22,432 bases of DNA. It comes from a virus. Location of the stretch: IMG/VR virus record IMGVR_UViG_3300032213_000378, positions 1 to 22,432 of that record; one strand, given 5' to 3'. Position numbers and translations under genes: made by a program. How positions within the stretch are numbered: the first letter of the stretch is position 1; each line of letters begins with the position of its first letter. Positions 1 through 9,313 of this stretch are shown in pieces. The notes beneath the pieces were generated by a model. It was not told the origin of the DNA, ran no database searches, and saw only the letters and a program-made list of their open reading frames with translations.

Positions 1-942
1 AACGGCTTGGGTTATGAGTACGCCTACATTGACGTACCCAACATGGACTTGGGCGACATTGCCATGCCGGTAATCGACCACGACTCCAAGACTACCCGCT
101 ACTATCCTAACGCTAGGTTCAAGATTCATGAAGGCAAGCCCCTTGTCATCATGCTTGACGAATTTTCAAAGGGCGCAGACCCAGTGAAGAACATGCTTCA
201 CCCTATGCTAGAGAAGGCTAACCCTAGACTAGGTGACATACCATTGCCGACCGATGGAGACAGACAGACCATTGTGTTTCTAACAGGCAACCTATCGACT
301 GATGGTGTGGGCGATAACCTAAAAGCACATAGCCGTAACCGCTTAGTGCCCGTGACGATCAGCAAACCCGATGCCGAGCAATGGATTGAGTGGGCGATCA
401 ACAAGGGTATCGAGCCCGAGGTGATTGCGTGGGTGAATCGTTTCCCTCATGCAATGGCTAGCTACACAGACGCAGGGCAAGGCGACAACCCCTACATCTT
501 TAACCCTAAGAACTCTCAGAAGGCTTTCGTATCACCACGCTCGTTGGAGACAGCGTCTAACATTGTTAGGTCTCGTAAAGATAACGACCCTGAGACTGTG
601 ATTGCGGCTTTGTCAGGTGCGGTGGGTGAATCAGCGGCTCGGGATATGCAAGCATACATAGAGTTCTCAGATCAATTGCCAACGTGGGAGTCAACGATCA
701 CGCATCCCAAGACCACGGCAATACCTACGTCAGCCGGTGCATGTGCCATTGTTGTATTCGGTGCTATTGCTAGGGTGGACAAGACAACGATTGCCCCATT
801 CATGGAGTACTTGGAGAGGTTCGATGCCGAGTGGCAAGCGGTGTTCGCTATCAACATAGCCAAGACACCAAGCAAACAGAGCATTGCGTTCAGTTGCAAG
901 GCGTTCGCTGATTGGGTTGCCAAGAACCATGACTTACTCTGA
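1..942 (+). CDS. MoxR/CbbQ-like AAA+ ATPase, 5'-truncated by the window edge
   Basis: The frame is open from base 1, so the gene starts upstream; the TTG at 7 is not a credible start. 313 residues are visible. Numbered from base 1, they show a Walker B motif (VIMLDEFSK, D53-E54), a sensor-1 segment ending TGN (N97), and an arginine-finger-like RNR (R112, R114). The Walker A loop must lie off the left edge. This pattern fits MoxR/CbbQ-type AAA+ ATPases, which form hexamers and work with VWA-domain partners to remodel target proteins. The partner is probably the VWA-metallopeptidase protein starting at 1356, with a DUF3150-like gene further on. The C-terminal third has no recognised motif. The 13-bp palindrome CTAACATTGTTAG lies inside the gene at 557-569. 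The ATPase family is fairly secure; the phage target is unknown. Confidence 0.82.
   Translation, partial: NGLGYEYAYIDVPNMDLGDIAMPVIDHDSKTTRYYPNARFKIHEGKPLVIMLDEFSKGADPVKNMLHPMLEKANPRLGDIPLPTDGDRQTIVFLTGNLSTDGVGDNLKAHSRNRLVPVTISKPDAEQWIEWAINKGIEPEVIAWVNRFPHAMASYTDAGQGDNPYIFNPKNSQKAFVSPRSLETASNIVRSRKDNDPETVIAALSGAVGESAARDMQAYIEFSDQLPTWESTITHPKTTAIPTSAGACAIVVFGAIARVDKTTIAPFMEYLERFDAEWQAVFAINIAKTPSKQSIAFSCKAFADWVAKNHDLL
557..569. repeat. 13-bp palindrome copy 1 (CTAACATTGTTAG), exact
   Basis: An odd-centred perfect inverted repeat of 6-bp arms inside the MoxR-like ATPase gene. It is the reverse complement of the CTAACAATGTTAG form; as the centre base is the only asymmetry, both forms are the same site. 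Here it encodes S-N-I-V. Confidence 0.85.
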
Positions 943-1162
943 ACCCGAAGATGGTTGGCTTGAGTCTGACCCGTTTACCTATACCAAGCTACATGAAGCG
1001 GGTTATGCGGTGGGTGGGTATCAGGATGACGATGACAAGCAACGATACGTACTGTACCAAGTGGGGCGTGGCAAGAATGGCGACTTCCGCAAGGTGCATG
1101 ACTTTGCAACTTTACAGGAGTTACAACTTATGGCTAGGTTACTAATCGAAGGAGGTATGTGA
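929..1162 (+). CDS. Small acidic phage protein of unknown function (77 aa)
   Basis: I do not recognise this family. The ATG at 929 is chosen because it overlaps the preceding ATPase gene by only 14 bases; the open frame extends to 884, but that stretch reads the ATPase gene in another frame. The protein begins MTYSEPEDGWL and has an acidic stretch (QDDDDK) followed by YVLYQVGRGKNG and an amphipathic leucine-rich C-terminus (LQELQLMARLL). It has no signal peptide or membrane segment. Its position between the MoxR ATPase and its presumed VWA partner, on the same strand with tight overlaps, implies cotranscription and possibly an accessory role. Function is unassigned. Confidence 0.62.
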   Translation: MTYSEPEDGWLESDPFTYTKLHEAGYAVGGYQDDDDKQRYVLYQVGRGKNGDFRKVHDFATLQELQLMARLLIEGGM

Positions 1163-1353
1163 TGACGTTCAATGGAACTGCGGCTACCGATTTCAGAAGG
1201 TACTACGCTAGATGGGTGACTACTTATCTTGACGGCAACCTAGCAGTCACGGGTTACTGTGTATATGACGGGCAGGATTGCAAGACTTTGTTCGAGCATG
1301 AGAGCCGAGAGGTGTGTGAAAAGTTAGCGAATATATTAAACGAAAGGACATAA
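1162..1353 (+). CDS. Small phage protein of unknown function (63 aa)
   Basis: The ATG at 1162 follows a strong Shine-Dalgarno (AAGGAGG, 1149-1155) and shares one base with the preceding stop, so translational coupling is likely. A GTG at 1159 is a possible alternative but sits closer to the SD. The protein is mixed-charge and soluble-looking, with two aromatic stretches (FRRYYARWVTTYL and GYCVYDGQDC), and ends in a short helix-like segment. No family is recognised. Its TAA stop (1351-1353) falls inside the near-perfect palindrome copy at 1350-1362, which also contains the start codon of the next gene. Confidence 0.6.
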   Translation: MTFNGTAATDFRRYYARWVTTYLDGNLAVTGYCVYDGQDCKTLFEHESREVCEKLANILNERT

Positions 1354-1362
1354 CAATGTTAG
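1350..1362. repeat. 13-bp palindrome copy 2 (ATAACAATGTTAG), 12/13 match
   Basis: It spans the stop of the 63-aa gene (1351-1353) and the start codon of the VWA-metallopeptidase gene (1356-1358). Only the first base differs from the consensus. Confidence 0.7.
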
Positions 1363-2543
1363 AAGAACGTAAATTGCAGAAGGCCAAGATCACGCTTATG
1401 CGTAACCCCAAGTTCGCCTTACTCCAAGGTGTAATGATGGTTGGTCGTACGAGCGTAGTGGATGACATACCCACTGCGTGTACCAACGGACGAGACGAGA
1501 AGTATGGGCGTAAGTTCGTGGCGATGCTAACCGATAAGGAACTGGCATTTCTTGTGGCGCATGAGGTGTCACACAAAATGTATCGGCATTTGACTACATG
1601 GAAAAAACTCCATGACCAAGACTCAAGCCGTGCCAACAAAGCTTGTGACTACGTTATTAACTACATGCTCAAGGAACTCGACCCCAACGAGGATGTGATT
1701 GCCATGCCCAAGTACAAGGATGGTAAGCATAAGGGTGAGCGCATGGGACTGTATGACGCACAGTACAAGGGCATGAACTCCAAGCAAGTGTTCGACTTAC
1801 TCAAAGATGAGGAAGAGGGCGGTGGCGATGGTGACGGGCTTGATGAGCATGATTGGGATGGCGCAGATAAGCTAAGCGAGGAAGAGAAGAAAACCCTTGA
1901 GCGTGAGATCGACCAAGCTATTCGTCAGGGTGTCATGGCGCATGAGAAAGCACACGGCAAAGGTGCGGGTGGTGTGGGGCGTGAGATTGATGAACACTTG
2001 CAACCCAAGATCAACTGGCGTGAAGAACTACGTGAGTATGTGAAAGCTACATGCCACAACAAGGACACATCATCGTGGCGCAGAGTCAACCGCAGATACA
2101 TATCTAGCGGTGTGTATATGCCTAGCATGATAGGTGAGAAGGTGGGGCATATCGTAGTAGGCATAGACACATCGGGCTCCATCGGTGGGAAAGAACTCGA
2201 TGAATTCTTAGCCGAGGTGAAAGGTGTGGCCGAGGAAGTTAGCCCCGAGATGGTTGATCTTATCTATTGGGATGGTGCAGTGGCAGGGCATGAGAAGTAT
2301 GAGGGTGCGGAAGTATCTAACATTGTTAGCTCGACCAAACCAAGCGGAGGTGGGGGCACTGACCCTAGTTGCGTATCTCAATACTTGCGTGACGAAGCTA
2401 TCAAGCCCGAGTGCATCATTATCTTGACCGATGGTTATGTACCCAACTGGGGTAGTGAATGGACAGCGCCAACTATGTGGGTAGTAGTAGGAGGTAATGA
2501 TGCGATTTCTGACAATGGCAGAACGATTCATATTCAAGATTAA
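1356..2543 (+). CDS. HExxH metallopeptidase-like plus VWA-domain protein (MoxR partner)
   Basis: This 395-aa protein matches the architecture of the predicted metal-dependent peptidases of the DUF2201/COG3864 type. The N-terminal half carries a zinc-binding motif HEVSH (H69-E70...H73) followed by a conserved-looking ACDYVIN segment. A charged linker (about 145-200) precedes a C-terminal VWA-like domain with a complete MIDAS: DTSGS (D271, S273, S275), T335 in a GGGGTD loop, and D359 in LTDGY. Such proteins are usually encoded beside MoxR/CbbQ ATPases, as here, and the VWA is expected to bridge target and ATPase. Whether the HExxH site cuts protein or is structural is not known. The ATG at 1356 follows AAAGGA and lies inside a palindrome copy. 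A second exact copy is within the gene at 2317-2329. Confidence 0.85.
   Translation: MLEERKLQKAKITLMRNPKFALLQGVMMVGRTSVVDDIPTACTNGRDEKYGRKFVAMLTDKELAFLVAHEVSHKMYRHLTTWKKLHDQDSSRANKACDYVINYMLKELDPNEDVIAMPKYKDGKHKGERMGLYDAQYKGMNSKQVFDLLKDEEEGGGDGDGLDEHDWDGADKLSEEEKKTLEREIDQAIRQGVMAHEKAHGKGAGGVGREIDEHLQPKINWREELREYVKATCHNKDTSSWRRVNRRYISSGVYMPSMIGEKVGHIVVGIDTSGSIGGKELDEFLAEVKGVAEEVSPEMVDLIYWDGAVAGHEKYEGAEVSNIVSSTKPSGGGGTDPSCVSQYLRDEAIKPECIIILTDGYVPNWGSEWTAPTMWVVVGGNDAISDNGRTIHIQD
2317..2329. repeat. 13-bp palindrome copy 3 (CTAACATTGTTAG), exact
   Basis: It lies inside the VWA-metallopeptidase gene, between the MIDAS DTSGS and GGGGTD motifs. It encodes S-N-I-V in the same codon phase as copy 1, so chance amino-acid overlap must be considered for these two copies. 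Confidence 0.82.
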
Positions 2544-2559
2544 AGTAAGGAGGAACAAA

Positions 2560-2811
2560 ATGATCGTGATTGACTTAGGCTACCGCAAGGTAGTGCTTAC
2601 TAAAGAAAAGGCAATGCTGTTAATGGATTGCTTAGAGAGCGCAGAAGTATATGAAGAAAAGTACTGGGGTGAGGAAAAGCGCAAAGAGTTAGGCATGACT
2701 GAAACGTACACACACCATGTGTACCCAAACGATAACAATTTCAGTATGCAGATTATGAGTGACAGTAAATATCAAATGGCTAAGTTAGCCGGTAAACCAC
2801 AGGAGAAATGA
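2560..2811 (+). CDS. Conserved small phage protein, unknown function (83 aa)
   Basis: The ATG at 2560 is chosen for its strong Shine-Dalgarno (AAGGAGG, ending about 2553) just after the preceding stop. The frame runs back to 2497, but that part overlaps the VWA gene and lacks an SD. The protein starts with a beta-like segment (MIVIDLGYRKVVLT), then a helix (KAMLLMDCLESAEVYEEKYW), and ends in a lysine-rich tail. It resembles small hypothetical proteins seen in phage accessory clusters, but I cannot assign a function. It sits between the VWA-metallopeptidase and DUF3150-like genes, so it is likely part of the same transcript. Confidence 0.66.
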   Translation: MIVIDLGYRKVVLTKEKAMLLMDCLESAEVYEEKYWGEEKRKELGMTETYTHHVYPNDNNFSMQIMSDSKYQMAKLAGKPQEK

Positions 2812-2812
2812 A

Positions 2813-3661
2813 ATGAGTATTAGTGCATCAGCAGTGTTAGTGGAATTGAACATAAGCGTGTGGCCTGCATCAAAGCTAGACCGCGATACAACAGCGCAAG
2901 TGAATACTGACGCATCAGCAGTCGTAGACGCGGCGCGTGTCCATAAGAATCTATTTGCAGGCACTAGCTTGCGTAAAGAGATCGAGAACTTTGCCGCCAA
3001 GGTTAGGCTTTATCACAATCAGCGAACCCTGCCATGGGCAGACAAAGGCGAGCGTATGTTGCCGACTGCATTGTTTATGGAATACAAGCAGACCATGAAC
3101 GCATACGAGCAGACGTTCGACACAATGTGTAGCTCATTCTTTCACGCATACCCTGAACTAGTGAAGGATGCGCCTACGCACCTAGGCAAGATGTACAAGG
3201 CCGAGGACTACCCCGAGCTTGAAGATGTAAAGTTGAAGTTTGGGTTTCGCAGAACTGTGAAGCCTGTACCCGAGGCGGGTGACTTTCGCTTAGACATACC
3301 TGCGAATGACTTAGAGGAGATGCGAGCTGAGTTCAATGCACAACAAGACAACAAGCTAGCTGACGCTATGCGTGAGCCATGGGAACGCTTACATGAAATG
3401 CTAGTAGGCATGTCTAAGAAGCTCGACGATACATCGGGTGGTAAGAAGCGGTATCACGATACGTTAGTAAGTAACCCGCTAGAGCTATGCGCCTTGCTTA
3501 CTAAGATGAACATTACCAACGACCCCAAGTTGGAGGAAGCACGCAAGGAACTAGAGCTAACAATGTTAGGTACTAACATAGAAGCAATCAAGGAAGACGA
3601 GCATCATCGCACCGAGGTGAAAGCCAAGGTAGATGCAATCATTAAAAAGTTTGAATGGTAA
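2813..3661 (+). CDS. DUF3150-like phage protein (282 aa)
   Basis: This is a largely alpha-helical, charged protein starting at ATG 2813 with AGGAG at 2801-2805. Recognisable stretches are an N-terminal VWPASKLDRD region, a helix leading to LYHNQRTLPWADKGERMLP, a central EDYPELEDVKLKFGFRR, and a C-terminal LVSNPLELCALLTKMNI segment. This layout resembles a phage family often annotated as DUF3150, which tends to be encoded near MoxR-type ATPases. I make that match by eye, so it is moderate. No catalytic motif is visible; a structural or adaptor role with the ATPase/VWA pair is an inference from position. An exact 13-bp palindrome lies inside the gene at 3557-3569 and continues into a second inverted repeat (3564-3578). 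Confidence 0.7.
   Translation: MSISASAVLVELNISVWPASKLDRDTTAQVNTDASAVVDAARVHKNLFAGTSLRKEIENFAAKVRLYHNQRTLPWADKGERMLPTALFMEYKQTMNAYEQTFDTMCSSFFHAYPELVKDAPTHLGKMYKAEDYPELEDVKLKFGFRRTVKPVPEAGDFRLDIPANDLEEMRAEFNAQQDNKLADAMREPWERLHEMLVGMSKKLDDTSGGKKRYHDTLVSNPLELCALLTKMNITNDPKLEEARKELELTMLGTNIEAIKEDEHHRTEVKAKVDAIIKKFEW
3557..3569. repeat. 13-bp palindrome copy 4 (CTAACAATGTTAG), exact
   Basis: It lies inside the DUF3150-like gene in a different codon phase (L-T-M-L) from copies 1 and 3. Its right arm also forms TGTTAG-GTA-CTAACA with a further CTAACA, giving a nested inverted repeat through 3578. Confidence 0.85.
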
Positions 3662-3671
3662 GGAGTAGATC

Positions 3672-4559
3672 ATGGATGCAAGCACCGCAATGACATTGAG
3701 TAACGTCACCTTTAGCGAGAAGCTATTGAATGGTAGGCGTAAGACCGACTTTGATTTCGTGGTGGAGAAACCGCTTAATGAGATCATGTGGAAGGTCATC
3801 ACTGAGAACCCGTCATGGGAGTTCCGAGTGCTAGAGTATTACGGACAAATCAAGAGTGAGACTGCGGATACCCGTCCACGTTTGACTATTGGTAAGTTCG
3901 CAGTATTCAAAGATGGGGAAGAGATTGGCAAGATCGACCGAGACTATCGGTACGATGCGGGTGGTCACATATTCTCTATCTCTAGCAACGCCATTAGGCA
4001 CGAGCGCGAGCGTGTGGGCGCGTATCGCACTAAGGATGCTAAGAAAGCCCTAGCCGCTATCAAGAAAACATTCAGCAACAAGAGCGTAGCTGAGCGTATG
4101 AATGATGCGTTGGGAGAAGCTAATCGAGTTGTTAGTAGGCAAACAAGTCAGAAGCGTGGTAACCATCAGAGCGCCTTGCATAGCCTCATACCGCTTATGA
4201 AAGCCTTTGCGTTTGTGCAACATGCAGAGGACTTCAAAAAATATGCGATAGTCAATGGACAAGCGCATCAACTAGCGAAGATACGAGAGGCGGAGGCTGA
4301 GATGCTAACTGTTACTGACATAGAAGCTAAGTTCAAAGCCGATAAGGGTACGAGCCTAGTGTTGTTATCTAATGGAAAGTACGTAGTTAAAACAGGTGAC
4401 GAAGTACAACTTTACGATGATAATACGCTCCCGCTTGATATGAGAGGTAAGTTAGGTATGTTGAAGTTAGTAGAGCCTGAGCAGATGATCGAAGGTGTGG
4501 GTTGCCGAGCCACTACCGAAGTCTTTGTTTTACTTACCGCAGAGCGGGAACTGGCATAA
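3672..4559 (+). CDS. Unknown phage protein, possible accessory-cluster component (295 aa)
   Basis: I do not recognise this protein. It starts at ATG 3672 after AAGGAG (about 3660-3665). The N-terminal part alternates short beta-like stretches (FRVLEYYGQIKSE, RLTIGKFAVFKDGEEIGKI) around a Tyr/Arg-rich segment (RDYRYDAGGHIFSISS). The middle is helical and basic (TKDAKKALAAIKKTFSNK). The C-terminal third has further beta-like pieces (TSLVLLSNGKYVVKTGDEV). There is no signal peptide, membrane segment or obvious catalytic motif. It is the last large gene of the MoxR/VWA/DUF3150-like group and probably shares its transcript. Confidence 0.68.
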   Translation: MDASTAMTLSNVTFSEKLLNGRRKTDFDFVVEKPLNEIMWKVITENPSWEFRVLEYYGQIKSETADTRPRLTIGKFAVFKDGEEIGKIDRDYRYDAGGHIFSISSNAIRHERERVGAYRTKDAKKALAAIKKTFSNKSVAERMNDALGEANRVVSRQTSQKRGNHQSALHSLIPLMKAFAFVQHAEDFKKYAIVNGQAHQLAKIREAEAEMLTVTDIEAKFKADKGTSLVLLSNGKYVVKTGDEVQLYDDNTLPLDMRGKLGMLKLVEPEQMIEGVGCRATTEVFVLLTAERELA

Positions 4560-4567
4560 CAAACAGG

Positions 4568-4580
4568 CTAACAATGTTAG
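4568..4580. repeat. 13-bp palindrome copy 5 (CTAACAATGTTAG), exact
   Basis: It lies in the 31-base gap before the 55-aa gene, and its last two bases are the first two of that gene's Shine-Dalgarno (AGGAG, 4579-4583). Confidence 0.88.
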
Positions 4581-4590
4581 GAGAATCCAA

Positions 4591-4758
4591 ATGAAAGATG
4601 AAATGAAATACCAATCAAAAGCAATCCCACTGCGGTTGTGTACCGACCCAAAGTTTAAATACCGCAACGCTTCACAAACGGACGTACGTAGAACATGGCG
4701 CAAGGCCCGCCTACTTATGTTGCTGACAAATGGAGCCGCTTATGAAAGCCGTACTTGA
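4591..4758 (+). CDS. Small basic conserved phage protein (55 aa)
   Basis: The ATG at 4591 is preceded by AGGAG (4579-4583). The first two bases of that SD are the last two bases of an exact 13-bp palindrome (4568-4580), so a protein bound there would cover the ribosome-binding region in the DNA. The frame extends upstream to 4495 but would overlap the previous gene. The core FKYRNASQTDVRRTWRKAR resembles a short phage family with a conserved TDVR-TW core and no known function. The protein is rich in Arg and Lys, so nucleic-acid contact is possible but unproven. Confidence 0.58.
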   Translation: MKDEMKYQSKAIPLRLCTDPKFKYRNASQTDVRRTWRKARLLMLLTNGAAYESRT

Positions 4759-4924
4759 GTTTGAGTACCCCGATGACGAATACAAACTACAACATGCAAT
4801 GCGAGGTACTGAGTACTACGATGCGTTGTGTGAAATAGATAACATATTGGCGATGCCGTATACCAAAGCAGACGCATACGGCAGGATTAAAAAAGTAATT
4901 TTTGAAGTATTGGAGGGAACATGA
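4742..4924 (+). CDS. Small conserved phage protein, unknown function (60 aa)
   Basis: The ATG at 4742 is preferred over the one at 4730 because GGAG (4733-4736) is correctly spaced only for the former. It overlaps the preceding gene by 17 bases. The protein has a beta-like start (MKAVLEFEYPDDEYKLQHAM) followed by two helices. This resembles a common small phage family that begins MKA(I/V)LEF and then has an acidic 'PDDE' turn and an alanine/tyrosine helix; its function is unknown. The stop overlaps the next start as ATGA, implying coupled translation. Confidence 0.68.
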   Translation: MKAVLEFEYPDDEYKLQHAMRGTEYYDALCEIDNILAMPYTKADAYGRIKKVIFEVLEGT

Positions 4925-5121
4925 AAGAAGATGACGATGACATTCAAGAATATGAATCAGGATGGCGTAAGAGACAGATTGCTATGGGAAAAGAATACAA
5001 CTACGAACGTGATATGCGTAATCGAACGCTAGAAGAAGTAGCCCTTGAGTTTGACAAGATGAAAAACTTTGGGGATACGTCAGCATCCTTTGCAGTATAC
5101 GTACGGGGGATGAAAAGATAA
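4921..5121 (+). CDS. Small charged phage protein, unknown function (66 aa)
   Basis: It starts at ATG 4921 in an ATGA overlap with the previous gene, with GGAGGG about six bases upstream. The first residues are very acidic (KEDDDDIQEYE), followed by an Arg/Lys-rich middle and a short C-terminal FAVYVRGMKR. No domain is recognised. Its TAA stop shares its last base with the next ATG (TAATG), so it lies in a translationally coupled chain of small genes. Confidence 0.6.
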   Translation: MKEDDDDIQEYESGWRKRQIAMGKEYNYERDMRNRTLEEVALEFDKMKNFGDTSASFAVYVRGMKR

Positions 5122-5381
5122 TGCCGAGACCTAAACCGCCCGAGCCACTTAAAGGTCGCAACATGCGAATGTCTGATATTGAGTGGCTTATGTTTAAAGA
5201 ATTAGGAGGAGCCGACTGGCTAAGAAAGTATGTTAAGCAAAAAGCAAAGTACCCAAAAGGATACTACGAAGCCCTTGTCAAACAAGGTGCTGACTCAGGA
5301 AGAGCTAATGGCGTGGTGGCCGTTCACACGGCTAGACCCGAAGCGATTCCCCAAACCAAAGAAGCCACAACAGGATTATGA
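5121..5381 (+). CDS. Small basic phage protein, possibly DNA-binding (86 aa)
   Basis: It starts at ATG 5121, overlapping the upstream stop by one base. The N-terminus is proline- and arginine-rich (PRPKPPEPLKGRN). It is followed by MRMSDIEWLMFKELGGADWLRKYV, in which the MSDIEW-helix-GGADWLR pattern resembles small phage DNA-binding or homing-associated segments, though no standard HTH can be fixed by eye. The last 30 residues look disordered. The role is unknown; a nucleic-acid-binding role is a weak inference from charge. Confidence 0.6.
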   Translation: MPRPKPPEPLKGRNMRMSDIEWLMFKELGGADWLRKYVKQKAKYPKGYYEALVKQGADSGRANGVVAVHTARPEAIPQTKEATTGL

Positions 5382-5393
5382 GGAGGCAACATT

Positions 5394-5615
5394 TTGATTG
5401 CAAATAAAGAATGCTATGAGAGAGGATGCGCTTGCTACGACAGCCGAGTGGATGGTGAGGGTATTGAAGTAGTAGCAAAGCATGAGACAACAATGAAACC
5501 ATTAGCATGGTATGACCCAACTAACCGCATGGTCAGCACAGACAAAGACAGCCATTTGTTTACACCGCTTGGTCAGGTGTGGCCTTTGTATACAAAACAA
5601 GGAGAAGAACAGTGA
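5394..5615 (+). CDS. Small phage protein with TTG start, unknown function (73 aa)
   Basis: The only start consistent with the strong SD (GAGGAGG, about 5380-5386) is the TTG at 5394; no in-frame ATG lies near the N-terminus. The protein has three cysteines near its start (CYERGCACYD), which could bind metal, and a conserved-looking C-terminal part, KPLAWYDPTNRMVSTD followed by QVWPLYT. A PLxWYD-(x)n-WPLY pattern of this kind occurs in small phage proteins of unknown function. Its stop overlaps the next start as GTGA. Confidence 0.58.
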   Translation: MIANKECYERGCACYDSRVDGEGIEVVAKHETTMKPLAWYDPTNRMVSTDKDSHLFTPLGQVWPLYTKQGEEQ

Positions 5616-5818
5616 CCACAGGAATTGAGTATTTGAAAGTAGAGAAGAAACGCAAGGGGCGGGGGCTTGGTAAGAAACCCGCTTTAGCTTGCACGAGCTT
5701 GCGACTACCGAAGGAGGTGATGGATTATTTCGACACCAACCATCGAATGTCAAAGCAAGCCAAAATGAGAGAAGTTCTTACCGAGTACGTTAATAAACAA
5801 ACAGGAGTTAAACCATGA
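5612..5818 (+). CDS. Ribbon-helix-helix candidate regulator (68 aa)
   Basis: The GTG at 5612 is chosen because AAGGAG (5599-5604) is correctly spaced and it overlaps the previous stop as GTGA; the longer frame from 5579 has no SD. A basic, glycine-rich N-terminal arm (KKRKGRGLGKK) precedes SLRLPKEVMDYFDTN and KMREVLTEYV. That is the short strand, helix, turn, helix layout of Arc/MetJ-type ribbon-helix-helix proteins, which bind DNA as dimers at inverted repeats. It lies in the part of the window rich in the 13-bp palindrome, so it is one candidate to bind it, but nothing here proves the link. It could instead be a small antitoxin-like protein without a toxin. Confidence 0.6.
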   Translation: MTTGIEYLKVEKKRKGRGLGKKPALACTSLRLPKEVMDYFDTNHRMSKQAKMREVLTEYVNKQTGVKP

Positions 5819-6372
5819 TTAAAAAAGTAACCAAAGCCGCACAAGTGCGTAGCTACGTAGCCGCAAACCCTAAAGCTAAACCCGCAGAGGTAGCGAAAGC
5901 TATAGGTGTTGGGCTTCAGTACGTATACACAGTGCTGTGGAACGCAAAGAAGAAGGCGGGAGTTAAAAAGAAAGCTACGCTTACATTGCCCAAAATCAAG
6001 AAGGCTATGGCAGAGCATAAAAAAGTAATGGATGACACGATAAAAGGTTGGAAGAATCTTTCGGTTGGTACAACGGAAATTCCAATGTTTGAAGGTACAT
6101 CCAGTAGACTTGCTGAACTTTCAATTCGACCTAAGATGCGTATGCAAAGTAGCGATGGAACACAACGTGAATTGTTTGACGCAGTAGATCACCCTGCCCA
6201 TTACAAGGTAGGTGGAATCGAGACCATTGATTTTATCGAAGCAAAGAAGTTGGGGTACAACCTTGGCAACGTGGTGAAGTATCTGACTCGTGCTGACTAC
6301 AAAGGCAACAAGTTGGAAGACTTGCGCAAAGCTCAGTGGTATCTGACACGCGAGATTAGCGCACTGAAGTAA
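5815..6372 (+). CDS. HTH plus DUF3310-domain protein (185 aa)
   Basis: It starts at ATG 5815 in an ATGA overlap. Residues about 8-48 (VRSYVAANPKAKPAEVAKA then IGVGLQYVYTVLWNAKKK) look like a helix-turn-helix. A lysine-rich linker follows. The C-terminus, about residues 125-183, begins DHPAHYKVGGIETIDFI and contains NVVKYLTRADYKGNKLEDL and a WYLTREI ending, which is the recognisable DUF3310 pattern found in many phages. Some DUF3310 proteins are annotated as nucleotide kinases, but the biochemical role is not clear to me. It is the last gene of the first transcript, followed by a palindrome copy (6379-6391) and an intrinsic terminator. Confidence 0.8.
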   Translation: MIKKVTKAAQVRSYVAANPKAKPAEVAKAIGVGLQYVYTVLWNAKKKAGVKKKATLTLPKIKKAMAEHKKVMDDTIKGWKNLSVGTTEIPMFEGTSSRLAELSIRPKMRMQSSDGTQRELFDAVDHPAHYKVGGIETIDFIEAKKLGYNLGNVVKYLTRADYKGNKLEDLRKAQWYLTREISALK

Positions 6373-6378
6373 AACGAC

Positions 6379-6391
6379 CTAACAATGTTAG
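6379..6391. repeat. 13-bp palindrome copy 6 (CTAACAATGTTAG), exact
   Basis: It lies six bases after the stop of the DUF3310 gene and ten bases before the terminator stem, in non-coding DNA at the end of the first transcript. It is the last strong copy in the window. Confidence 0.88.
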
Positions 6392-6790: not shown

Positions 6791-8604
6791 AAATAATCAC
6801 AGTAGACTTTGAAACCTTTTACTCACGCGAGGTAGGGTTTGCAAAGCAGACTACCGAAGAGTACATTCGTGACCCGCAGTTCCATGTCGTAGGGGTATCA
6901 GTGCAGGTAGATGACGGAGAGCCAGAATGGTTCAGCGGAACGATGGTTCAGACTGCCGAGTACCTTAAACAATTCGATTGGGCAAATTCACTGGCACTAG
7001 CCCACAACGCCATATTTGATGGGGCAATCCTGAGTTGGCATTTCAACATTAAACCAAAGGGTTGGTTGGACACACTCTCCATGGGCAGAGCATTGCATGG
7101 CACTAACGTAGGGGGCAGTCTCAAGGTGCTAGCGCAGTACTACGGCATTGGTGAGAAGGGCACAGAAGTTGAGAACGCCCTTGGTTTGAGACGGATCGAC
7201 TTTCCCCCCGAACAGTTATTAAGGTATGGGGAATACTGCATGAACGATGTAGCCCTGACATGGGAATTGTTTGGCAATATGAGCGCAGGGTTTCCACAAG
7301 TAGAGCTGCGGCTAATTGACTTAACCATACGCATGTTCACAGAACCGTCTTTGGCGCTGGACTTGCAAGTACTCGGTGACCACTTGGAGTCAGTAAAAGA
7401 TTTGAAGGCAATGGCACTAGGGGCTTACGAAAAAGAAGACATGATGAGCAACCAAAAGTTTGCCATTATGTTGCAAGCCGCAGGCGCTACACCGCCAATG
7501 AAGATCAGCCCCGCCACAGGCAGAGAGACTTACGCATTCTCTAAGACGGACGAAGAGTTTAAGGCATTGCTAGAACACAACAGCCCCGCAGTACAAGCGT
7601 TGGTATCCGCACGCCTAGGTACTAAGTCGACCATTGAGGAGACGCGAACCGAAAGGTTTATTGGGATTGCCAAGCGAGGACTTATGCCAGTTCCCCTGCG
7701 ATACTATGCGGCTCACACAGGGCGATGGGGCGGTGATGACAAGCTCAACCTACAAAACATCCCACGCAACTCCCCCCTGAAAAGCGCTATCTTTGCGCCA
7801 ACAGGATACGTGATGATCGACTCAGACTCATCACAGATTGAAGCACGTACGCTAGCATGGCTTGCGGAACAGAACGACTTAGTGGAGGCATTTGATCGTG
7901 GCGAAGACGTATACAAAATCATGGCATCTGCTATCTATGGCAAGGACGTCTCGCAGATTACAAAGGACGAGAGATTCGTTGGTAAGACCACTATCCTTGG
8001 CTGTGGGTACGGGATGGGCGCGGCAAAGTTCCAAGCTCAACTCAAGAACTTTAATGTGGCGATTGAACTGGATGAAGCCAAGAGGATTATCAACACTTAC
8101 CGCGAAACGTATCCGAAAATTACTGCGCTTTGGAAGAAAGCGGGCCTAGCCCTTGAAGCCGTACTGCGTAATAGCGCAATGGGATTGGGCAGGGACAGTG
8201 TCCTTAAGATCGAGGGAAACAACGGCATCCTTTTACCAAATGGTTTGTACCTGCGTTATCCGAACCTGCGCATACTTCAGAGTGACGAAGGTAAGGCCGA
8301 GATGGTGTATGACACCAAGCGGGGCAAAGCTACTATCCCTAACCGAATCTATGGCGGCAAGGTCATTGAGAATGTCTGCCAAGCCTTAGCCCGTATCGTG
8401 ATCGGTGAGCAGATGCTATTGATCGCCAAGAAGTACAAGGTTGTGATGACTGTGCATGATGCGATTGCTTGTATTGCGCCGACACCCGAGGCTCAGACTG
8501 CGCAAGAATACGTAGAGATGTGTATGCGCGTGCGTCCCAAGTGGGCACTTGACCTACCACTTAATTGCGAGGCCGGATACGGCAAAAATTATGGCTCTTG
8601 CTAA
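6787..8604 (+). CDS. polA: Family A DNA polymerase with 3'-5' exonuclease domain
   Basis: This 605-aa replicative polymerase starts at ATG 6787 (ATGA overlap). The N-terminal exonuclease shows VDFETF (D7, E9), AHNAIFDG and YCMNDVALTWE. There is no 5'-3' exonuclease domain, as is usual in phage Pol A. Polymerase motif A is DSSQIEAR (D347, E352). The O-helix is R396-x3-K400-x3-L404-x3-Y408, so the position matching E. coli F762 is leucine. Motif C is VHDAIA (H557, D558, A559): the catalytic aspartate is kept but the usual glutamate is alanine. Leu762-type polymerases are known from many environmental phages and have been linked in the literature to temperate or slower-replicating lifestyles. 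It presumably works with the primase-helicase at 13651. Confidence 0.95.
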   Translation: MKIITVDFETFYSREVGFAKQTTEEYIRDPQFHVVGVSVQVDDGEPEWFSGTMVQTAEYLKQFDWANSLALAHNAIFDGAILSWHFNIKPKGWLDTLSMGRALHGTNVGGSLKVLAQYYGIGEKGTEVENALGLRRIDFPPEQLLRYGEYCMNDVALTWELFGNMSAGFPQVELRLIDLTIRMFTEPSLALDLQVLGDHLESVKDLKAMALGAYEKEDMMSNQKFAIMLQAAGATPPMKISPATGRETYAFSKTDEEFKALLEHNSPAVQALVSARLGTKSTIEETRTERFIGIAKRGLMPVPLRYYAAHTGRWGGDDKLNLQNIPRNSPLKSAIFAPTGYVMIDSDSSQIEARTLAWLAEQNDLVEAFDRGEDVYKIMASAIYGKDVSQITKDERFVGKTTILGCGYGMGAAKFQAQLKNFNVAIELDEAKRIINTYRETYPKITALWKKAGLALEAVLRNSAMGLGRDSVLKIEGNNGILLPNGLYLRYPNLRILQSDEGKAEMVYDTKRGKATIPNRIYGGKVIENVCQALARIVIGEQMLLIAKKYKVVMTVHDAIACIAPTPEAQTAQEYVEMCMRVRPKWALDLPLNCEAGYGKNYGSC

Positions 8605-9313
8605 ATCTAACAGGCCGTACGGCAAAATAAACAAAGGGCAGACCATACCCTACGGCACGATGGTAGGCGCAAGCAAAGAACTGCGTGAAACGTATTACTT
8701 TTACGGATACAAAGAAGACTCGATGTTGCCTGAGCTACCCTGCCCACCCGAGGAAGAACAATACATTGACCCCGACTACGAGATATACAAGAAAGAGTTA
8801 GCCGAGCAAGTCAAAGATATGTTGGATAGCCTTACACCGAGGGAAGCTAAAGTATTGCGTATGAGGTATGGGATTGAGTTGGACTGCGACTACACCCTAG
8901 AAGAAGTTGGCAAAAGGTTTGCAGTCACACGCGAGCGCATTAGGCAGATTGAAGCTAGAGCAATGCGTAAAATGTTTAACCCCTTCCGTAATTCAGTGTT
9001 GAGAAGCGTGTGGATGCCCGAGCAGTACTACGAGACAACCGAGGACAAAAGGCGCGAGATTGAATCGCGGCAAAGAGAATGGCAAGACGCTAGAGAAAGA
9101 CAACAACGTATTCACTACAGAGAAAAAACCATGCCCCCTGAGCAGAAGGGTTTGTGGGGGGAACTTAAACCCGCGCTTGAAGATGCGGCATGGGTTAGGG
9201 GTTTAAAAATATCAAAGCCCGACATGTACCAAGAATTAAAGGAATTGGTAGGCGATCTGTGGGGTATGAGCGCAAAAGACATTTGGAAGAAGTACACAAA
9301 GGAAGACTTATGA
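8591..9313 (+). CDS. Sigma-70 region 4-like HTH protein (240 aa)
   Basis: The ATG at 8591 is preferred; the open frame goes back to 8549 but only into the polymerase gene. No good SD is visible, so translation may depend on coupling with the polymerase. Residues about 81-128 match sigma-70 region 4: LTPREAKVLRMRYG, then YTLEEVGKRFAVTRERIRQIE, then ARAMRKM. Region 2, which binds the -10 element and core RNA polymerase, is absent, so this is not a complete sigma factor. The C-terminal half is highly charged and helical (KRREIESRQREWQDARERQQ). Possible roles are transcriptional activation by contacting the -35 region, redirecting host polymerase, or simple DNA binding. It overlaps the next gene as ATGA. 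Confidence 0.85.
   Translation: MALAKSNRPYGKINKGQTIPYGTMVGASKELRETYYFYGYKEDSMLPELPCPPEEEQYIDPDYEIYKKELAEQVKDMLDSLTPREAKVLRMRYGIELDCDYTLEEVGKRFAVTRERIRQIEARAMRKMFNPFRNSVLRSVWMPEQYYETTEDKRREIESRQREWQDARERQQRIHYREKTMPPEQKGLWGELKPALEDAAWVRGLKISKPDMYQELKELVGDLWGMSAKDIWKKYTKEDL

Follow-up and report, generated by a model that had tools for sequence, protein, structure and literature searches.

A linked gene block at the left end of a phage contig

The window analysed here is the whole of a 22.4-kb linear virus record from IMG/VR (IMGVR_UViG_3300032213_000378). At its left end, all on the + strand, lie genes for an AAA+ ATPase of the MoxR/midasin-like kind (1..942, encoding the last 313 of ~355 aa), a 395-aa DUF2201 protein that combines zincin and VWA domains (1356..2543), a 282-aa DUF3150-related protein (2813..3661) and a 295-aa protein outside known families, p295 (3672..4559). 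These four genes form one block. An initial annotation of this DNA had drawn attention to the three large genes, with small open reading frames (ORFs) between them; the ORFs were found where it had placed them, and the linkage of the three genes proved to be far above chance.

The window starts ~42 residues inside the ATPase gene, whose reading frame is already open at base 1. Because the contig edge cuts the gene, the window protein has no Walker A motif; the Walker B D-E lies at window 157-162. L002, a full-length relative that is 97% identical, has both Walker A (GEPGIGKSS, fitting GxxGxGKS) and Walker B DE, and scores 29.1 bits against PF07728 AAA_5 (cut-off 22). The window protein itself matches the ATPase family phrog_1297 (E 2e-40), and the closest solved sequences to its family profile are midasins (E 1e-19). 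Searches with PADLOC and NCBIfam models returned weak P-loop matches for the ATPase and none for the other module proteins. A weak bpMoxR match (0.018) was seen in one homologue, a systematic VMAP search not having been made.

The DUF2201 protein matches PF13203 DUF2201_N, "putative metallopeptidase" (95.8 bits, cut-off 23.2; E 4e-27), and PF09967, "VWA-like" (55.4 bits, cut-off 26.4; E 8e-15). Its N-terminal zincin domain contains H69-E70-H73 (1560-1574) and D98 (1647-1649), and its C-terminal VWA domain carries a metal ion-dependent adhesion site (MIDAS) made up of D271 (2166-2168), S273, S275, T335 (2358-2360) and D359 (2430-2432). Apart from D98, all of these residues had been named in the initial annotation; they occupy the positions given there and were invariant first in 16 diverse homologues and then in 37 homologues of this phage group. 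D98, N94, N102 and H78 were likewise invariant, and D98 is the probable third zinc ligand. The HExxH motif, the D98 equivalent and the MIDAS residues are also kept in N4, LIT1, Kc283, phage G, Thermus phage phiFa, a Rhizobium phage, cyanophage MinM2 and three plasmids; the phages concerned are phages of Escherichia, Pseudomonas, Bacillus, Thermus, Rhizobium and cyanobacteria. The sole MIDAS variant in this comparison, DLSAS in LIT1, retains the metal-binding positions.

In an AlphaFold2 model of the DUF2201 protein (mean predicted local distance difference test score, pLDDT, 79), HExxH lies on a helix spanning residues 60-77 and D98 on the next helix, 90-108. This predicted placement is compatible with a zinc metallopeptidase and is not proof of one. 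When the modelled VWA domain was compared with the PDB using Foldseek, the top match was the MIDAS domain of human MDN1 (midasin; E 4e-5). The ATPase and the VWA protein carry the features of a MoxR/midasin-type AAA+ protein and its MIDAS partner, in line with the MoxR-VWA pair proposed earlier. Relatives of the VWA protein were present in 589 records of a phage collection, or 637 with the MinM2 protein as query. They are commonly labelled HNH endonuclease, as in phrog_1314 (PHROG 1314), N4 gp25 (NC_008720), LIT1 gp35 and many RefSeq phage records. No domain search made here supports an HNH nuclease, and the mislabel hides the VWA gene in public databases.

The 282-aa protein has a small N-terminal beta part, the remainder being mainly helical. 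It gave no Pfam match at E 1 and so does not reach the PF11348 cut-off. A 37% identical homologue linked to the same genes (L069) scores 31.7 bits against a PF11348 cut-off of 24.9, and the model of the window protein (pLDDT 82) matches the fold of a viral "DUF3150 domain-containing protein" in BFVD (E 2e-17). On these two grounds we describe it as DUF3150-related and not as a strict member of the family; the label "DUF3150-like" used earlier holds through the homologue and the fold, but not through a Pfam match of the window protein itself. The PF11348 model is too narrow to detect DUF3150-related proteins in whole records, and at least 594 IMG/VR stretches contain relatives of the DUF3150-like profile. 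Against the PDB the model had no match at E <= 0.001. VIA matches of the model were discarded; they involve only the C-terminal helical bundle, and helical proteins can reach their Z scores (up to 10.7) by chance. Also rejected as a DUF3150 match was a cluster O mycobacteriophage protein, the fold similarity being weak (E 0.02) and a profile comparison with Catdawg proteins failing to confirm it.

Linkage across phages and plasmids

The conservation of the block was examined in 78 sources, consisting of 74 viral loci fetched with the VWA protein together with reference loci, several of them truncated. Of these, 67 have the ATPase, 74 the DUF3150-like gene and 71 p295. In an independent test, loci were fetched by the DUF3150-like gene alone, and the four genes occurred in the same order in 35/35 loci with enough flank. 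p295 is consistently the next gene after the DUF3150-like gene (median gap 11 bp); it is fast-evolving and has no Pfam or PHROG family match. The smaller ORFs are kept to different degrees: 17/78 loci have the 77-aa ORF (929..1162), 36/78 the 63-aa ORF (1162..1353) and 55/78 the 83-aa ORF (2560..2811), which lies between the VWA and DUF3150-like genes. As conservation of the 77-aa and 63-aa ORFs is not general, neither is likely to be an essential component. The suggestion that neighbours of the large genes could be adaptors fits these two ORFs poorly; the 83-aa ORF, and above all p295, are better candidates.

In more distant loci the linkage persists with altered gene order. Nine divergent loci have the DUF3150 gene upstream of the ATPase gene (D-A-V), MinM2 has it between the ATPase and VWA genes (A-D-V), and plasmids of Rhodovastum, Cupriavidus, Burkholderia, Paraburkholderia and Variovorax carry ATPase, DUF3150-related and VWA genes consecutively. 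Of nine phages covered by whole-record profile searches, eight have both the ATPase and the VWA gene and one has neither. Both the locus counts and these whole phage genomes therefore tie the ATPase to a gene for a MIDAS VWA partner. DUF3150 was present in just two of the nine, MinM2 and Tunturi_3, the latter without the pair.

Could the genes be mere neighbours in one phage lineage, with no machine at all? Almost every gene is syntenic inside the close group, as that explanation would have it, and because synteny is so general there, it is the rearranged and cross-replicon linkage that constitutes strong evidence. Linkage is kept, with altered order, in distant phages and in plasmids whose other neighbours differ, and the ATPase and VWA genes co-occur in 8/9 phages with one double absence. 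These data contradict the explanation by mere neighbourhood, which we consider highly improbable. The three genes behave as one co-conserved unit, and a lack of co-conservation between ATPase and VWA genes, which the initial annotation had held to speak against a joint system, was not seen. Conservation is nested: an ATPase-VWA core, DUF3150 as a frequent third partner, p295 as a further partner within this phage group, and two optional ORFs, of 77 and 63 aa.

In a genome collection, two of the 369 genomes of the class of G001 gave a match, G001 itself being one, and the module is therefore rare in cells in that sample. A plasmid sequence used as query of the same collection recovered three Burkholderia relatives only.

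Several individual loci deserve mention. In L161 the ATPase and VWA genes are each split into several ORFs, and in L107 the DUF3150-like gene is split likewise, as by frameshifts or assembly errors. On the Burkholderiales plasmids L079, L080 and L181 a ThiF-family gene precedes the triplet by ~5-6 kb, and in L079 and L181 this gene carries the name PRTRC system; type IV secretion genes also adjoin the triplet in L080 and L181. The MoxR-DUF2201 pairs on plasmids of Sphaerotilus (L177) and Synechocystis (pSYSA; L178) both have a DUF262 gene nearby, as is seen in defence islands. Tunturi_3 (L081; gp96, gp103), which has DUF3150 without the pair, also encodes a 531-aa AAA protein with a relationship to gp97, the AAA ATPase of cluster O (E 1e-16). 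DUF3150-like proteins may have a second AAA partner, but in Catdawg (L183; gp95, gp97) the DUF3150 link was not confirmed.

Genomic setting and dispersed palindromes

Downstream of p295 the window encodes several small ORFs, a DUF3310 protein, a VRR-nuclease, a family A DNA polymerase (PolA), a sigma-70 region 4 protein, a PD-(D/E)XK exonuclease, an SNF2-type helicase and a DUF927/primase-like protein, and the module shares its strand with PolA, helicase and primase. The sigma-70 region 4 match (8549-9313) is clear (E 1e-18), and the protein may possibly be a phage-encoded transcription factor. On the - strand, an ORF of at least 1894 aa that is cut by the contig edge (16746-22430) has a DarB-like antirestriction match (E 1e-52) and is probably a large polyvalent protein, to judge from that similarity. 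In the near-complete relative G374 (63.4 kb), the + strand carries the module and the replication genes, and the - strand those for the portal, the large terminase and virion proteins. No ORF in G374 exceeds 2031 aa, as compared with ~3500 aa for the virion RNA polymerase of Schitoviridae, although the polymerase itself was not searched for.

This arrangement bears on a role as a virion assembly or maturation chaperone, like the MoxR protein p618 of ATV with its VWA partner p892. A viral MoxR-VWA pair has been described in that capacity (PMC4124505), and in RPP1 virion proteins are encoded close to the gp24/25 homologues (PMC4193335). Those homologues are, however, outside the 13 virion proteins identified by mass spectrometry in RPP1/RLP1 (PMC4193335). 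The module is opposite in strand to portal, terminase and virion genes and adjoins replication genes, and the same triplet is found on plasmids, which make no virions. N4 gp24/25, the counterparts of the ATPase and VWA genes, are middle genes (PMC4193335). Their middle-gene status, the replication-gene neighbourhood and the occurrence on plasmids together argue against a purely structural role. Maturation of a virion part, which the initial annotation had entertained, is thus less likely than it allowed, and we regard a chaperone of virion assembly as quite unlikely.

Window 557-6391 contains six copies of a 13-bp palindrome, CTAACA-W-TGTTAG, one of them with a mismatch, where 0.05 would be expected. 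The copies lie at 557-569, 1350-1362, 2317-2329, 3557-3569, 4568-4580 and 6379-6391. G374 (L167/L168) has 13 copies of the same palindrome, in its early region only. Other module-bearing lineages have different dispersed palindromes or spacer or sequence variants (loci L071, L063, L067, L039 and L076); in MinM2, GTTCAG-N-CTGAAC is present in 21 copies, and in the stretch examined most of them precede a start codon by 31-41 bp. No such array was seen in the stretches examined of pair-bearing phages without DUF3150 or of plasmid loci. The palindromes look like an operator or stoperator-type array; a similar palindrome array has been described in cluster O mycobacteriophages, and stoperator-like arrays are also comparable (PMC4351075). 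The window also encodes a 79-aa protein (5579-5818) with weak antitoxin-like similarity (phrog_4692, E 0.007) that is conserved in 58/78 loci. It looks ribbon-helix-helix-like by eye, and is a candidate palindrome binder.

Selection and co-variation

Ratios of nonsynonymous to synonymous substitution rates (dN/dS) were computed against seven relatives. The ATPase gave 0.01-0.09, the DUF3150-like gene 0.03-0.07 and the polymerase 0.07-0.13; the ATPase and DUF3150-like genes are under strong purifying selection, as strict as that on DNA polymerase. The VWA gene (0.10-0.20), p295 (0.09-0.30), the 83-aa ORF (0.08-0.18) and the 77-aa ORF (0.25-0.68) gave higher upper values. Protein distances of VWA, DUF3150 and p295 remained correlated after removal of PolA and VRR-Nuc (partial r 0.56-0.68).

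Slow evolution of this kind points to a conserved client and not to a target in an arms race, and it weighs on the possibility that the module serves counter-defence or host takeover. Under that explanation the machine would unfold or degrade a host defence or regulatory protein, hence its carriage by phages and conjugative plasmids. The module is indeed common to lytic-type phages and conjugative/mobilizable plasmids, its genes have an early/middle position, and the same phage encodes a DarB-like antirestriction protein. Nonetheless, an ATPase and a DUF3150 protein evolving as slowly as DNA polymerase would be unusual for arms-race genes, the PADLOC and NCBIfam searches gave no match apart from the weak P-loop ones, and the module is represented by core genes of N4-like phages over many hosts. 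We therefore think a role in counter-defence rather unlikely.

A proposed protein-remodelling machine

Taken together, the data lead us to favour, with reasonable though not strong confidence, a dedicated midasin/NorQD-like protein-remodelling machine encoded by the block. That the ATPase and the VWA protein act together is the part of this proposal we hold most firmly, and we consider it very likely. The ATPase would form a MoxR-type ring (hexamer), on which the DUF2201 protein would dock through its VWA domain, the MIDAS metal gripping an acidic residue of the client. ATP turnover would then pull or twist the client, as in midasin and NorQD. Ring formation, contact between ATPase and VWA protein and MIDAS client binding are all inferred here from the behaviour of the named families. 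The zinc domain on the same polypeptide might cleave the client, or might have a structural or metal-handling role. As a third subunit, the DUF3150-related protein would probably be an adaptor or a scaffold that holds the client, and p295 could be a phage-group-specific partner or client. The machine would work during the early/replication phase of infection, with a conserved protein as its target, either the phage's own or a slowly evolving host protein; like the part given to DUF3150, this timing and target are conjectural. Whether the module is proteolytic we judge to be evenly balanced, and the proposal that its target lies in phage or host DNA metabolism falls just short of that.

Several observations weigh against this proposal. 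DUF3150 is dispensable, as it was not found in N4, LIT1, phage G, phiFa, the Rhizobium phage or Kc283. Profile-profile searches beside the pair in these same six phages revealed no equivalent of DUF3150 or p295, with positive controls recovered. Conversely, DUF3150 is present without the ATPase-VWA pair in Tunturi_3, and the pair without DUF3150 on the Sphaerotilus and Synechocystis plasmids and on a Rhodococcus plasmid. The partial correlation of ATPase distances is weak (0.20-0.34), and physical linkage alone could yield the remaining distance correlations. Finally, the data would be explained just as well by a zinc domain with no catalytic activity.

This last point touches on a metal or cofactor insertase of the NorQD/CobST-like kind, in which HExxH would be a metal-handling site and not a peptidase site. 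NorQD and chelatases insert metals using MoxR-VWA pairs (PMC13036017), and the conserved H/E/D cluster could bind metal. Such a function is nonetheless improbable: no gene for a metalloenzyme regularly accompanies the module, and the invariant HExxH glutamate is typical of a catalytic zincin. If the remodelling machine that we favour does cut its client, it might represent a new three-part AAA+ protease class of phages and conjugative plasmids, with a midasin-like ring, a single grip-and-cut chain (MIDAS plus zincin) and DUF3150 selecting a conserved client that mobile elements need in many hosts. We advance this extended version very tentatively, and think it doubtful as a whole.

Relation to known systems

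The initial annotation had considered the system its best candidate for an undescribed one. This does not hold for the ATPase-VWA pair, which corresponds to N4 gp24/gp25 and has ~600 annotated phage records. N4 gp24/gp25 are Schitoviridae/N4-like core genes, entered as "unknown" and "vWFA domain", and AAA and VWFA/DUF2201_N domains were already recorded in Delftia phage RG-2014. A literature search found no functional study of N4 gp24/25; in the passages found in the CRISPRi-ART paper, N4 is mentioned only for rII and phage preparation. DUF3150 was not mentioned in the literature searched, preprints and most subscription journals lying outside the search. The pair thus belongs to the core genes of a large phage family with laboratory models (N4, LIT1/PEV2) and has relatives in ~600 sequenced phage records, and the DUF3150 and plasmid links define a gene set that is testable in E. 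coli. The module could turn out to be a targeted protease of a new kind, or to reveal a step in host handling that mobile elements share.

N4 gp24/gp25 (PHROG 1297, 1314) resemble the module in being homologous, adjacent ATPase and DUF2201 VWA genes with intact zinc and MIDAS motifs and replication genes nearby. The Schitoviridae relatives differ in being just ~21-32% identical, and no DUF3150 or p295 homologue was found in N4, LIT1 or Kc283. In the Burkholderiales/Rhodovastum plasmid triplets the three components are encoded side by side and carry the same motifs, but the order is ATPase-DUF3150-VWA, p295 is missing and identity is ~22-30%; several of these triplets are near PRTRC and type IV secretion genes.

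Among characterized proteins, midasin/Rea1 provides the closest solved relatives of both the ATPase and the VWA domain, but it is a single giant eukaryotic polypeptide with no zincin domain, and its substrate is the pre-60S ribosome. To our knowledge, the MIDAS partners in NorQD, CbbQO and RavA-ViaA lack the DUF2201 HExxH domain. These systems share with the module a separate MoxR-type ATPase and MIDAS partner, and in NorQD the client is held by the MIDAS metal of a VWA partner bound to a MoxR-type hexamer, and is pulled or twisted as ATP is turned over (PMC13036017). Their targets are NOR, Rubisco and LdcI/Frd, respectively, and they include no DUF3150. ATV p618-p892 is comparable, at the gene-pair level, as a viral MoxR-VWA pair whose interaction was shown experimentally; it differs in belonging to an archaeal virus, in being a virion component and in having a role in tail development (PMC4124505). 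The MoxR-vWA ternary conflict systems (VMAP, iSTAND, FtsH, beta-propeller) likewise join MoxR and vWA proteins to a third component, but their third components and effector domains are different, they occur mostly in multicellular bacteria, and DUF2201 is unmentioned (PMC7159879). Set against these systems, the partnership with DUF3150 and the occurrence of the module in both phages and plasmids seem unreported, and the conservation of zinc and MIDAS residues across phages and plasmids and the correction of the HNH label are also new.

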